NCBI RefSeq assembly: GCF_003234445.2
Contig: NZ_CP126269.1
Span: 3,472,001-3,536,000, forward strand
Origin: Curtobacterium sp. MCLR17_036
Lineage (GTDB): Bacteria > Actinomycetota > Actinomycetes > Actinomycetales > Microbacteriaceae
Length of the DNA stretch: 64,000 nucleotides
Direction of reading: 5' to 3'
A model generated the notes under the pieces. The model worked only from the letters and a program-made list of their open reading frames with translations. It was not told the DNA's origin and did not search any database. This document shows, one piece after another, positions 31,685 through 34,912 of this stretch; the stretch's first letter is position 1; each line of letters opens with the position of its first letter. The translations under genes and the position numbers were made by a program.

Positions 31685-32179
31685 TCAGGTGCCGATCGAG
31701 ATCCGGAAGACCCGCACCCCGGACGCGCGCAGACCCGCGAGCCCGAGCCGCATCCGCATCCCGCGGAACGGTCGACGGAACCCGGACCACGCCGACGCGA
31801 CGCCGATCTGGTGCAGCACCTCGGACGTCAGGGTGCGCTCGAGCTTCGGCGCGAGCCGGGTGAGCCCGGACACCGTCACCACGACGCGCACGGCCCCGGG
31901 GGCGAGGAGCGGGTCGATCGACTCGGCCGCCGCCTGCGCTCGGTGGAACGCCGGGTCGTCGCCCGGCCGTCGGACGGCGATCACGGCGAGCGTCGCGTCC
32001 CAGGTCTCGTCGGGGTCCGGCGGGTCGTCGACGCCGACCACCCGCATCCGTGCGGCGTCGATGCCCGCGCGCACCGCGGCGGCGCGCAGGACGGGCAGGA
32101 GTTCCTGGGTACCGGCGAGCACGACGTCGGCCGACGTCAGGTCGACCGGTGCGGGCCGCTCGTGCGGCGATCGGGCCAT
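31685..32179 (-). CDS. Hypothetical protein
   Basis: 164 aa that I cannot assign. It alternates hydrophobic strands and helices (VVLAGTQELLPVLRAAAVRAGI, GVDDPPDPDETWDATLAVIAV, AVRVVVTVSGLTRL), suggesting a small alpha/beta fold, and ends basic and hydrophobic. AAGGA precedes ATG 32179 by about 9-10 nt. Divergent from the M23 peptidase gene. Confidence 0.6.
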   Translation of the reverse strand: MARSPHERPAPVDLTSADVVLAGTQELLPVLRAAAVRAGIDAARMRVVGVDDPPDPDETWDATLAVIAVRRPGDDPAFHRAQAAAESIDPLLAPGAVRVVVTVSGLTRLAPKLERTLTSEVLHQIGVASAWSGFRRPFRGMRMRLGLAGLRASGVRVFRISIGT

Positions 32180-32298
32180 GGTGGGGGTCCTTCCGGCGCT
32201 CCGTCCCGACGCTACCGATCGTCCCGCGCGAGGGGCCGCCGACCGCCCGACGGCCAGGCCCTTCCCAGGACGGCGGCTCCGCGGTGCGATCCGGTTCG

Positions 32299-32340
32299 GT
32301 AACGAGAAGATCACGAAAGTCTCTGTACAAAGCGACAGAG
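32299..32340 (+). promoter_or_regulatory. Possible MtrA box and inverted repeat upstream of M23 peptidase gene
   Basis: GTAACG (32299-32304) and ATCACG (32310-32315) are spaced by 5 nt, like the direct-repeat sites of the actinobacterial response regulator MtrA. CTCTGT (32321-32326) and ACAGAG (32335-32340) form an inverted repeat just upstream of a possible -10, CAGAAT (32346-32351). Confidence 0.4.
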
Positions 32341-32362
32341 TCGTGCAGAATGGTGGGCGGCC

Positions 32363-33409
32363 ATGACGACTGCACACGAACCCGACCAGCACCCGGCGAC
32401 CCCGGTGGTGCACCTGTCCCGTCGTGCTGCACTCGAGGCGGAGCGCGCCGCGGCGCGGAAGCCCGAGCGTCGAGCAGCCCGCACGCCCCGCCCGGAGAAG
32501 CGCTCCGGACAGCGCGCCACGCAGCCGCCGGTCGCCGCGCAGCAGCCGGTCACCGTGCAGCCCGCCGCCGCGCAGCCGGCCGCCGTGCCGACCGGGCGTC
32601 GTGCAACGACCGCCCGCTCGACGACCGAGCACGTTGACCGCCGCATCACGCGCGTCGTCCGCCGTCCCTCCGTCACCGCGCCAGCCCCCGCACCCGCCCC
32701 GCGTCGCTCGCGGTCGGGTCGGGCAGGCCGCATCACGCTCACGAGCGCCGCCGCGGCCATCGCCCTGTTCGCCGCGTCCGCGATGCCCGCGCACGCCAGC
32801 GCCGGCACCTCGATGGCGACCTCGACCATCGCGCCGATGGTCCGCACACAGGACTACGCCGTGACGCAGGCCGTCACCGCCTCCGGGTTGTCCCGCGACG
32901 GGTTCACCGTCGGCGGCGGCTCGACCCGCACGGCGAGCGGCCCGGGCTCGTCCGACGACGCAGTGTCGTACGGCGGCGCCGTCCGGTCGCCGTTCCCCGG
33001 ACCGGTGCAGATGAGCTCCGGCTTCGGCTACCGAGCGGCTCCGTGCGGCGCGTGCTCGTCGCTCCACCAGGGCCTCGACTTCACGCCGGGCATGGGCACG
33101 CCGATCGGCGCCGTCGCCGCCGGGACCGTCCGGGTCTCGGGCACGTACTTCTCGTACGGCAACGCGGTCGTCATCGACCACGTGATCGACGGGCGCCAGG
33201 TCTCGACGCTCTACGGGCACATGATCCCGGGTTCGTCGCCGCTGCAGGTCGGCGACCAGGTCGAGGCGGGCGAGTTCATCGGGCTGGTCGGCTCGTCCGG
33301 CGTCTCGACCGGTGCGCACCTGCACCTCGAGGTCCTCATGGACGGCATCACCCCGATCGACCCCGAGGCGTGGCTCGAGGCCCGCATCGGTCGTTCGCTC
33401 ACCATCTGA
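32363..33409 (+). CDS. M23-family (LytM) murein endopeptidase
   Basis: 348-aa cell-wall peptidase predicted to cut peptidoglycan cross-links. Residues 1-125 are cytoplasmic-looking, Arg/Ala/Pro-rich and low complexity; one membrane segment or uncleaved signal (ITLTSAAAAIALFAASAMPAHA) follows. The LytM domain (about 205-345) has zinc ligands His235 and Asp239 (LHQGLDF) and the HLH motif His319/His321. Catalytic residues are complete. The long basic N-terminus is unusual for a secreted enzyme. Monocistronic. Confidence 0.92.
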   Translation: MTTAHEPDQHPATPVVHLSRRAALEAERAAARKPERRAARTPRPEKRSGQRATQPPVAAQQPVTVQPAAAQPAAVPTGRRATTARSTTEHVDRRITRVVRRPSVTAPAPAPAPRRSRSGRAGRITLTSAAAAIALFAASAMPAHASAGTSMATSTIAPMVRTQDYAVTQAVTASGLSRDGFTVGGGSTRTASGPGSSDDAVSYGGAVRSPFPGPVQMSSGFGYRAAPCGACSSLHQGLDFTPGMGTPIGAVAAGTVRVSGTYFSYGNAVVIDHVIDGRQVSTLYGHMIPGSSPLQVGDQVEAGEFIGLVGSSGVSTGAHLHLEVLMDGITPIDPEAWLEARIGRSLTI

Positions 33410-33525
33410 CGCGACCCCGCGGGACACGCGACGAGGGCACGCGTCGACACCGCCCCGCAGCACGGCCACACCGGATCCACAGCGTTCGTCGAGCACCGCC
33501 GCGGTGGCGTCCCAGTCCACCTGTG

Positions 33526-33531
33526 CAGGAT
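33526..33531 (+). promoter_or_regulatory. Leaderless-type -10 for the CNNM leader ORF
   Basis: CAGGAT lies exactly 6 nt upstream of ATG 33538. The identical hexamer and spacing precede the ridA-like gene at 60698. Confidence 0.45.
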
Positions 33532-33537
33532 CACAGC

Positions 33538-33594
33538 ATGGACGACTGTCACAGACCGCCCGCCCGATCCCGATCTGCACGGACTGCCCGCTGA
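33538..33594 (+). CDS. Candidate 18-aa leader peptide overlapping the CNNM gene
   Basis: Eighteen codons read MDDCHRPPARSRSARTAR. The stop TGA (33592-33594) shares its last base with the ATG of the CNNM gene (TGATG), which has no ribosome site of its own. The start has the -10 spacing of leaderless genes here, with AGGA also 7 nt upstream. The peptide has an acidic start, a Pro pair and an Arg-rich tail, in style like the enterobacterial MgtL leader that controls a Mg2+ transporter. Seven of 18 codons end in A or T, including AGA and two CGA, which is rare here. This means either slow codons or a chance ORF. Confidence 0.4.
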   Translation: MDDCHRPPARSRSARTAR

Positions 33595-34868
33595 TGGGCA
33601 CCGACACCTGGATCGCCTTCGGGCTCGTCATCCTCTTCGTGCTCGTCGGCGGCGTCTTCGCCGCGGCCGAGATCGCCCTCGTCTCGCTGCGCGAGTCGCA
33701 GCTGCAGCAGCTCGAACGCCGGGGGCCCCGCGGCGCCCGGGTCGCCGCCCTCGGCCGTGACCCGAACCGGTTCCTGTCCGCCGTGCAGATCGGCGTGACG
33801 GTGGCCGGGTTCTTCTCCGCCGCCTACGGCGCCTCGTCGATCGCGCCGGACGTCGCCCCGCTGTTGCTCGGCACCGGACTCGACCGGGGAGCGGCCGAGG
33901 CGGTGGCCCTGGTGCTCATGACCCTCGTCATCGCGTACCTGTCGCTGGTGTTCGGCGAACTCGTGCCGAAGCGCCTCGCCCTGCAGCGCGCCGAGGGCTT
34001 CGCGATGGCCGTCGCCCCGACGCTCGAACGCTTCGCGGTGCTCATGCGGCCGGTCATCTGGCTGCTCTCGACGTCCACCGACGCCGTCGTGCGCCTGCTC
34101 GGCGGCGACCCGCACGCCCGCAGCGAGTCGATGAGCACCGAGGAGCTCCGCGGCCTCGTCGACGACCACGACGCGATCGACGCGCAGGGCCGCCGGATCG
34201 CCCGCAGCGCGCTCGACGCCGGCGACCGGATCCTGCGCGAGTCGATGCGCCCCTGGTACGACGTGTCGACCATCGACGCGGGGCTGTCCGTCGCCGAGGC
34301 CACCGACCGGGCGATCGCGGCGGGGCACACCCGGTACCTCGTGACCTCGGGCGGACGCGACGAGGTCGACGGCTTCGTGCACCTCCGCGACCTGCTGCGC
34401 CCGGCCGACCCCGACGCCCCGGTGTCGACGCTCGTGCGTCCGGTGCTCGCCCTGCCCGAGACGAAGTCGCTGTCCGGCGCCATCGCGGACATGCGCACCG
34501 ACGGGCACCAGATCGCCCTCGTCGTCGACGAGTACGGCGGCAGTGCCGGCATGGTCACCCTCGAGGCCCTGCTCGAGGACCTCGTCGGCCGCATCCGCGA
34601 CGAGTGGGACACCGTCGAACACGACGGGCCGACCGCCGAGCGCGACGGGGTCGACGGCGCGACCGTCCTCGAGGACCTTGCCGCCGACGGCGGCCCGGTC
34701 CTGCCGGACGGCGACTACGAGACCGTCGGCGGGCTCGTCCAGGTGCACCTGGACCGCGTCCCCGCGGTCGGCGACGTCGTCCTCGTGGCTGGCCACCGGC
34801 TCGAGGTGACCGCCATGGACGGTCACCGCGTGGCGCGCGTCCGCATCGCGGCCGACGTCCCCGCCTGA
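33594..34868 (+). CDS. CNNM/CorC (HlyC) family membrane protein, likely divalent-cation transporter
   Basis: 424-aa protein with a DUF21 membrane domain (three or four segments, residues about 5-150, with AAAEIALVSLRESQL and FGELVPKRLAL). A CBS pair follows (about 200-320), then a CorC/HlyC transporter-associated domain (about 345-424). Family members include Mg2+ exporters and Mg2+/Na+ exchangers such as CorB and MpfA; the direction here is unknown. It starts inside the stop codon of a leader ORF, so its translation may depend on reading that leader. A terminator-like repeat, A4, follows directly. Confidence 0.93.
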   Translation: MGTDTWIAFGLVILFVLVGGVFAAAEIALVSLRESQLQQLERRGPRGARVAALGRDPNRFLSAVQIGVTVAGFFSAAYGASSIAPDVAPLLLGTGLDRGAAEAVALVLMTLVIAYLSLVFGELVPKRLALQRAEGFAMAVAPTLERFAVLMRPVIWLLSTSTDAVVRLLGGDPHARSESMSTEELRGLVDDHDAIDAQGRRIARSALDAGDRILRESMRPWYDVSTIDAGLSVAEATDRAIAAGHTRYLVTSGGRDEVDGFVHLRDLLRPADPDAPVSTLVRPVLALPETKSLSGAIADMRTDGHQIALVVDEYGGSAGMVTLEALLEDLVGRIRDEWDTVEHDGPTAERDGVDGATVLEDLAADGGPVLPDGDYETVGGLVQVHLDRVPAVGDVVLVAGHRLEVTAMDGHRVARVRIAADVPA

Positions 34869-34912
34869 CGGACGGGAGGCCCGTGCCGGCCCCGCCACGG
34901 GCCTCCCGTCCG
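34869..34912. repeat. Inverted repeat A4 (terminator-like hairpin)
   Basis: 17-bp perfect arms CGGACGGGAGGCCCGTG (34869-34885) and its complement (34896-34912) with a 10-nt loop. It starts at the base after the CNNM stop. Confidence 0.88.

Follow-up and report, generated by a model that had tools for sequence, protein, structure and literature searches.

Very probably, the CNNM transporter gene of Curtobacterium is preceded by a conserved coupled leader, a short open reading frame (ORF) that ends over the transporter start and recurs before CNNM genes in many actinobacterial groups. That this ORF is a translated leader (uORF) gating the transporter is the reading to which comparison of the sequences inclines us by a small degree, and that the gate responds to Mg2+ is a good guess that falls somewhat short of probable. 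The initial annotation had described the leader from the window, the whole 64,000-nucleotide stretch analyzed here, which belongs to a 3.64-Mb, single-contig Curtobacterium genome. The 18-codon ORF and its TGATG junction with the transporter gene are borne out at the positions given in Table 1 and, as had been claimed, neither an AGGAGG-like site nor a -10 element can be seen by eye before the CNNM ATG in the window. The nearest named relatives of the CNNM gene, among the best 80 of at least 513, are from Curtobacterium, and its 424-aa product resembles solved CorC and CNNM-type proteins. An M23 peptidase gene ends upstream of the leader at 33409, and a regulator with an MLTR ligand-binding domain is encoded downstream of the CNNM gene. 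A repeat similar to the 16-bp inverted repeat that follows the CNNM gene in the window is present at one related locus (L003).

Table 1. Positions of the leader, the CNNM gene and associated features in the window, and of the leader of the second CNNM paralogue.
Feature	Position	Strand	Basis
Palindrome CTGTGCAGGATCACAG / CTGTGCANNNTCACAG around the -10; candidate promoter or operator element	33521..33536	.	36/36 Curtobacterium leaders
-10-like hexamer CAGGAT, ending 6 nt before the leader ATG	33526..33531	+	sequence reading; 36/36 Curtobacterium leaders
Leader ORF, 18 codons, MDDCHRPPARSRSARTAR (ATG 33538-33540, then 17 codons, TGA 33592-33594)	33538..33594, TGA included	+	ORF reading; pN/pS 0.22 for codons 2-11
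Codons 4-6, TGT CAC AGA	33547..33555	+	codon 6 AGN in nearly all Curtobacterium leaders and two thirds of others
TGATG, leader stop and CNNM start with one common base (A)	33592..33596	+	CNNM ATG 33594-33596
CNNM (DUF21) - CBS - CorC_HlyC membrane protein, 424 aa	33594..34868	+	Pfam PF01595, PF00571 and PF03471 above cut-off
Perfect 16-bp inverted repeat, no T run; possible transcript end	34870..34911	+	read from sequence, directly 3' of the CNNM stop
Second-paralogue leader	L281:292-396 (G000:C1:2175400-2178700)		by eye; relatives L283-L311

Conservation was assessed in a close-relative set of 59 genomes, 36 of them Curtobacterium. A full-length CNNM orthologue was present in 27 of these 36, with one further orthologue split on two contigs and only distant paralogues in the remaining eight, and the leader was kept in 26 of the 27, ending at the same overlap. 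Conservation of this overlap in close relatives had been named by the initial annotation as a point on which its proposal could fail; it extends from these genomes to many families. All 26 leaders begin with MDD, carry an Arg codon last and stop at the CNNM start (TGA in 25, TAG in one), and their lengths of 17, 18, 23 or 26 codons correspond to indels in threes. Among 22 unique 18-codon Curtobacterium leaders, pN/pS was 0.22 for codons 2–11, rising to 1.81 and 1.36 when the frame was moved by one and two bases, and was 1.20 for codons 12–18. These values indicate that the first half of the leader is selected as peptide, while the second half is freer and keeps the frame and the ending. The motif of the first seven codons, ATGGAYGAYNNNCAYAGRCC, was matched once each in 17 of 39 genomes (reversed control 0), in all 17 just upstream of the CNNM match; the seven of 24 Curtobacterium genomes that gave no match either had no orthologue (G007, G011, G020, G022) or had a diverged leader (G013, G014, G019). 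A search of the genome that contains the window for other MDD-type leaders, using the pattern TANNNT-N4-9-RTGGAYGA, which is blind to CANNNT promoters such as that of the window leader itself, hit 11 places (reversed control 4); 10 of these open ORFs of at least 107 aa and the other, of 55 aa (L249), resembles a gene end by eye, so that these candidates were rejected.

Across the wider collection of CNNM loci, a leader was counted as any ATG or GTG ORF of 9–40 codons whose stop shares 1 or 4 nt with a CNNM start, a rule that counts any fitting ORF and misses leaders ending beside the start (e.g., L057 and L083). Loci were pooled from the best 80 of at least 513 named-species relatives, 30 close-relative loci, all 33 non-window matches from 249 family genomes and 88 of the 182 matched genomes in a 394-genome class sample, giving 230 loci after one (L132) was dropped and 208 without duplicates; near relatives are over-represented in the resulting counts because the named-species loci were the top-ranking ones. 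Any overlapping ORF was found at 132 of the 208 loci (shuffled mean 45.6), and one with an acidic second residue, referred to here as acidic-type, at 83 (shuffled mean 4.1). Outside Curtobacterium the corresponding counts were 95 of 168 against a mean of 39.8 (maximum in 200 shuffles, 51) and 47 of 168 against a mean of 3.6 (maximum in 200 shuffles, 10), leaving 73 loci with no overlapping leader by this rule and 121 without an acidic-type one. Genera with leaders include Amnibacterium, Herbiconiux, Rothia, Nesterenkonia, Nocardioides, Phycicoccus, Cellulomonas, Occultella, Demequina, Nocardia, and Rhodococcus; none was found at the Arthrobacter, Kocuria, and Brachybacterium loci examined. A further 30 loci inspected by eye comprised five acidic-type leaders, three basic ones, four hairpin-type leaders that end before the start (family f60) and 18 loci with no leader visible. 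Since many loci are without a leader, the switch is dispensable in many species. When mapped onto a quickly built tree covering 93 CNNM proteins (39 with acidic-type leaders, 23 with other leaders, 31 with none), the acidic-type label required 17 changes against a shuffled mean of 29.9, a value as low being reached in 0 of 500 shuffles; the label is scattered but clustered, implying repeated gain or loss in either direction. The wide presence of the leader before CNNM genes suggests that ribosomes must finish it before the transporter is made.

Overlapping short ORFs are frequent in this GC-rich DNA, and the leader might be a chance reading of conserved promoter DNA that has no function of its own. 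In the window, 17 of 41 gene-like ORFs had some overlapping short ORF and none had one with an acidic second residue; this control, which tries every start within the first 60 codons of each ORF, is a rough one and does not score the CNNM gene as a hit because its true start lies more than 60 codons from its first in-frame start. The frame-specific pN/pS contradicts a chance ORF, and the indels in threes, the occurrence of acidic-type leaders at thirteen times the shuffled level and a promoter that is spaced to the leader likewise stand against it, making this explanation extremely improbable.

Leaders of other build were also encountered. Longer leaders, mostly with an MTR or MTS start, occur in other genera of the family (L152, L155-L157, L161-L163, L167-L169) and once elsewhere in the order (L189); they hold a DCHRPSAR-like core, mostly followed by a hairpin of the GCCCGGGTGACCCCGGGC type, and end in a 4-nt overlap. 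By eye, the f60 loci (L277-L280) and a Kribbella locus (L102) have a leader that ends in TAG where a strong hairpin has its base, with an AGGA-like stretch about 11 nt before the CNNM ATG, and represent a variant with a possible Shine-Dalgarno site.

The promoter is positioned with respect to the leader. The hexamer CANNNT precedes all 36 Curtobacterium leaders with a spacer of 6 nt (11 leaders) or 7 nt (25 leaders), and in 30 of the 47 acidic-type loci outside the genus a TANNNT hexamer has its end 6, 7 or 8 nt ahead of the leader start (9, 19 and 2 loci, respectively), which upholds the leaderless spacing claimed by the initial annotation. At other spacings from 0 to 39 nt these 47 loci held a single TANNNT, at 4 nt, and in none of them did a TANNNT end within 30 nt of the CNNM start. 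Because the -10 box precedes the leader and never CNNM in those loci, the leader start is probably also the mRNA start, and a leaderless transcript is probable from the -10 spacing. For the 48 leaders of other types, TANNNT was found 6–8 nt before the leader in 24 and 15 nt before CNNM in six, while 33 of 70 loci without a leader had it ending 6–8 nt before the CNNM start. Leaders of Nocardia and Rhodococcus are preceded, by eye, by a Shine-Dalgarno-like stretch; with either layout, ribosomes would load on the leader first. A simple sigma-70 scan of 33380-33700 returned no promoter, that of the leader included, and a terminator scan was also empty. The palindrome that surrounds the window -10 was considered as a regulon operator and rejected, its exact form occurring once in the genome and forms with up to two mismatches 35 times against 29 for the reversed control.

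Three loci (L027, L048 and L049) form one supported Curtobacterium clade in which the leader is absent, most simply through one loss. Here the same promoter element, with the palindrome pattern also kept, lies 6–7 nt before the CNNM GTG with no leader between. Since this clade joins the promoter directly to CNNM, the leader is a piece placed between a leaderless promoter and its gene. The clade constitutes a natural deletion experiment.

The rare codons TGT, AGA, CGA, CGA, TCT, and ACT noted in the initial annotation are all present in the window leader, and rarity is conserved at codons 4–6. An AGN triplet stands at codon 6 in 35 of the 36 leaders from Curtobacterium and in 31 of the 47 acidic-type leaders from elsewhere; in the latter it is AGT in 20, AGA in seven, AGG in two and AGC in two, and AGT and AGA together make up 0.16% of 28,564 CNNM-gene codons. 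The residue at codon 6 alternates between Ser and Arg while the rarity of the codon is constant. Outside Curtobacterium, the fraction of third positions that are A or T at codons 4, 5, and 6 was 0.55, 0.55, and 0.68, against 0.074 in the CNNM ORFs, while codons 4–6 of CNNM genes without an acidic-type leader gave 0.12–0.18; the Curtobacterium leaders gave 0.33, 0.06, and 0.86 against 0.049. These A/T-rich codons support slow decoding, or a nucleotide-level signal of a kind that we do not name. The RAPP arrest motif is absent by eye from the Curtobacterium and acidic-type leaders inspected, that of the window reading RPPA. In three loci of a Nocardioides-like family (L252-L254), K-K or K-R stands by eye in place of D-D, with both CCT-CGA-AGT and the arms of the hairpin preserved, and the Aeromicrobium leader MKRPRKP (L100) has basic residues where the acidic pair would be, with CCT-CGA retained. 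Because of these replacements acidity is not indispensable, and acidic residues were rejected as a universal trigger; the rare codons and the coupling may be more important than acidity, or different lineages may use different signals.

Arg accounts for five of the 18 codons in the window leader, codon 6 is AGA in 28 of the 36 leaders from Curtobacterium, and codon 5 is CGA in 12 of the 47 others, so that ribosomes waiting at rare Arg codons might instead sense arginine, charged tRNA-Arg or polyamines, with CNNM serving as an exporter of polyamines or mixed cations. Arginine-dependent control of polyamine synthesis is reported for speF of Salmonella in the available part of that account (PMC6386406), and the best NCBIfam match of the CNNM protein is the polyamine exporter PaeA. 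That match is far below its cut-off, however (155 vs 500 bits), and as Ser AGT outnumbers Arg AGA at codon 6 outside Curtobacterium, no one amino acid would be sensed in common. We regard arginine or polyamine sensing as distinctly unlikely.

A short leader (VDDPPNSSSPHSS...) likewise precedes the second CNNM gene of the genome (L281), which by eye heads a tandem pair. Such leaders were seen at all six Curtobacterium loci inspected, and by eye 21 or 22 of 30 class-sample loci (L301 being doubtful) have leaders that start with or hold DDPP(S), DGS(xS) or DAGCSS-like motifs, an example from the same family being MDDPPSANPSHRPSP in L283. By the strict rule, overlapping ORFs were present at 22 of the 30 loci (shuffled mean 10.2, highest 16) and acidic-type ones at seven (shuffled mean 1.1, highest 4); the 22 do not all coincide with the ORFs recognized by eye. 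The third CNNM paralogue (L174) has no leader, its upstream stretch reading as the end of another gene.

The arrangement could also be produced by a leader that senses nothing. If leaderless promoters drive weak translation, a fore-cistron could constitutively deliver ribosomes to CNNM in the manner of a bicistronic launcher; in Corynebacterium glutamicum, leaderless promoters give higher expression when a fore-cistron is present, in constructs that, in the available text, also carried a Shine-Dalgarno motif (PMC10367133). Overlaps of 1 or 4 nt are those of ordinary coupling, and codons 12–18 of the leader are unconstrained. A launcher would have no need of a conserved peptide or of rare codons, yet codons 2–11 are under the coding selection described above and 66 of the 83 acidic-type leaders have AGN at codon 6; nor would it account for a like N-terminal motif before the second paralogue. 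It is considered unlikely.

In some lineages the leader is accompanied by a hairpin against the CNNM start. A stem with its 3' arm ending a few bases from that start exceeded shuffles (p ≤ 0.05) in 18 of 46 acidic-type leaders outside Curtobacterium, one of the 47 being too short for the test, and did so in 2 of the 36 leaders from Curtobacterium, 2 of the 48 of other types and 2 of the 71 loci that have no leader; a hairpin in Curtobacterium was accordingly rejected as not above shuffles. Covariation was examined in eleven Nocardioides-type leaders that were picked for their common layout, one of which (L083) ends 2 nt short of the start. Their 10-pair stem was paired in 110 of 110 cells, with both-side changes in four of the ten pairs (0 of 500 shuffles as high); further pair types did not exceed the shuffles, 375 of 500 being as high. 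When one arm was slid, pairing fell to 37–54%, which is a weak control because the stem was read from the same sequences, and the double changes weigh more. The hairpin is found in Nocardioides and some other lineages. Rfam returned just two weak matches in 32000-34000, far below gathering scores and neither at the leader; the 20 related loci searched yielded two tRNAs and one SRP RNA and nothing else, with no M-box or known riboswitch in either search.

In the arrangement usual for MgtL and MgtQ, abortion of the leader at low Mg2+ would refold the RNA and turn CNNM on; in Salmonella mgtQ, as far as the available text of that study goes, the acidic codons 2 and 5 make for less translation of the leader and more of mgtB (PMC8092293), and stems near the start do beat shuffles in 18 of 46 leaders. 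However, because these stems lie against the CNNM start, an empty leader would be expected to hinder CNNM and not free it; moreover, Curtobacterium has no strong hairpin, and the close overlap favors positive coupling. For the CNNM leader, a switch of the usual sign is very unlikely.

In the scheme that we infer for the CNNM leader, the sign would be reversed if CNNM exports Mg2+. Transcription would begin at or next to the leader start and ribosomes would load at the leaderless 5' end, or in Nocardia and Rhodococcus through the Shine-Dalgarno-like site. The first six or so codons (typically MDD-x-x-[S/R], often with Pro, and with rare CCT, CGA, AGT or AGA) would act as a checkpoint where the ribosome moves slowly or loses stability; those getting past it would reach the stop and restart at the CNNM start, which it overlaps by 1 or 4 nt, and in some lineages would also open the hairpin against that start, while drop-off on the leader would leave CNNM untranslated. 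Conditions that stabilize elongation, most likely ample Mg2+, would turn on CNNM, a probable exporter of Mg2+ (or polyamines). A leader aborted at low Mg2+ and coupled through TGATG implies that CNNM would be off, which fits an exporter. Staphylococcus aureus, according to the available text, requires its CNNM protein MpfA to grow in high Mg2+ (PMC6711546). As a reading somewhat less likely than not, we tentatively put forward an ancient actinobacterial ON switch for Mg2+ excess, in which a leaderless, rare-codon, ribosome-destabilizing leader is joined to CNNM exporters of at least two paralogue groups with a sign opposite to that of MgtL, and with strict hairpin coupling in some lineages.

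The initial annotation had likened the leader to MgtL, the leader of the Mg2+ importer gene mgtA in Escherichia and Salmonella. The acidic start, prolines and Arg codons are indeed alike by eye, a likeness of general layout rather than a sign of kinship, but the proposed sign is opposite and some loci carry basic residues instead; Mg2+ is proposed as the signal purely by analogy. The MgtL leader is not known to overlap mgtA; overlap of the window leader with the CNNM gene leaves no stretch between them for Rho-dependent termination of the MgtL type. In the available excerpts, MgtL is short like the CNNM leader and shows a Mg2+-dependent drop-off, caused by its acidic EPDP at low Mg2+, of the kind proposed for the CNNM leader; it differs in that it acts on Rho-dependent termination before the importer gene and its abortion switches the importer on (PMC11282234). 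Salmonella mgtQ-mgtB, from the accessible text, similarly combines a hairpin with a short ORF of 8 codons, some of them acidic, to control translation of a Mg2+ transporter, but mgtQ has a strong Shine-Dalgarno site, lies inside an operon and frees the next start when aborted (PMC8092293).

As far as found, the nearest published relatives of the gate are YoaL-mgpA and the N-terminus of CorC, both from partially available text. In enterobacteria the YoaL ORF overlaps the upstream end of yoaE (mgpA), a gene for a transporter with a CorC domain, and replacement of the YoaL start codon lowers MgpA translation; in Salmonella both corC and mgpA are induced by high Mg2+, and their regulation is described as unclear (PMC12421838). 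MgpA is a TerC-CBS-CorC transporter and not a CNNM protein, and belongs to another phylum; the leader peptides are likened by layout. The available portion of that report describes no leaderless mRNA or hairpin for YoaL-mgpA (PMC12421838). For CorC (YbeX), a destabilizing N-terminus is proposed to reduce how much of this Mg2+-efflux protein is made when Mg2+ is low (PMC12421838, citing Chadani, 2021), but this is a sequence within the protein and not a separate leader.

Among actinobacteria, short leaderless leader ORFs rich in cysteine are coupled to the downstream gene in mycobacteria, but these sense cysteine via Cys codons and precede other genes. The uORF Rv1805A of Mycobacterium tuberculosis is also linked to Mg2+ and, in the available text, differs in being under M-box riboswitch control and in its downstream genes (PMC12810186); the Rfam searches around the CNNM leader found no M-box. 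No leader peptide for an actinobacterial CNNM gene was found in a literature search covering the listed titles and abstract openings of open-licence papers.

How bacteria sense excess Mg2+ and start its efflux is poorly known. The leader is wider than the initial annotation knew, being present in many actinobacterial groups and not in Curtobacterium alone, and marks many small genes as testable in laboratory actinobacteria. If the proposed gate is true, a class-wide leader at a leaderless 5' end would offer a direct handle on Mg2+-excess sensing, would explain a conserved run of rare codons in GC-rich genomes and would extend ribosome-based cation sensing beyond enterobacteria.
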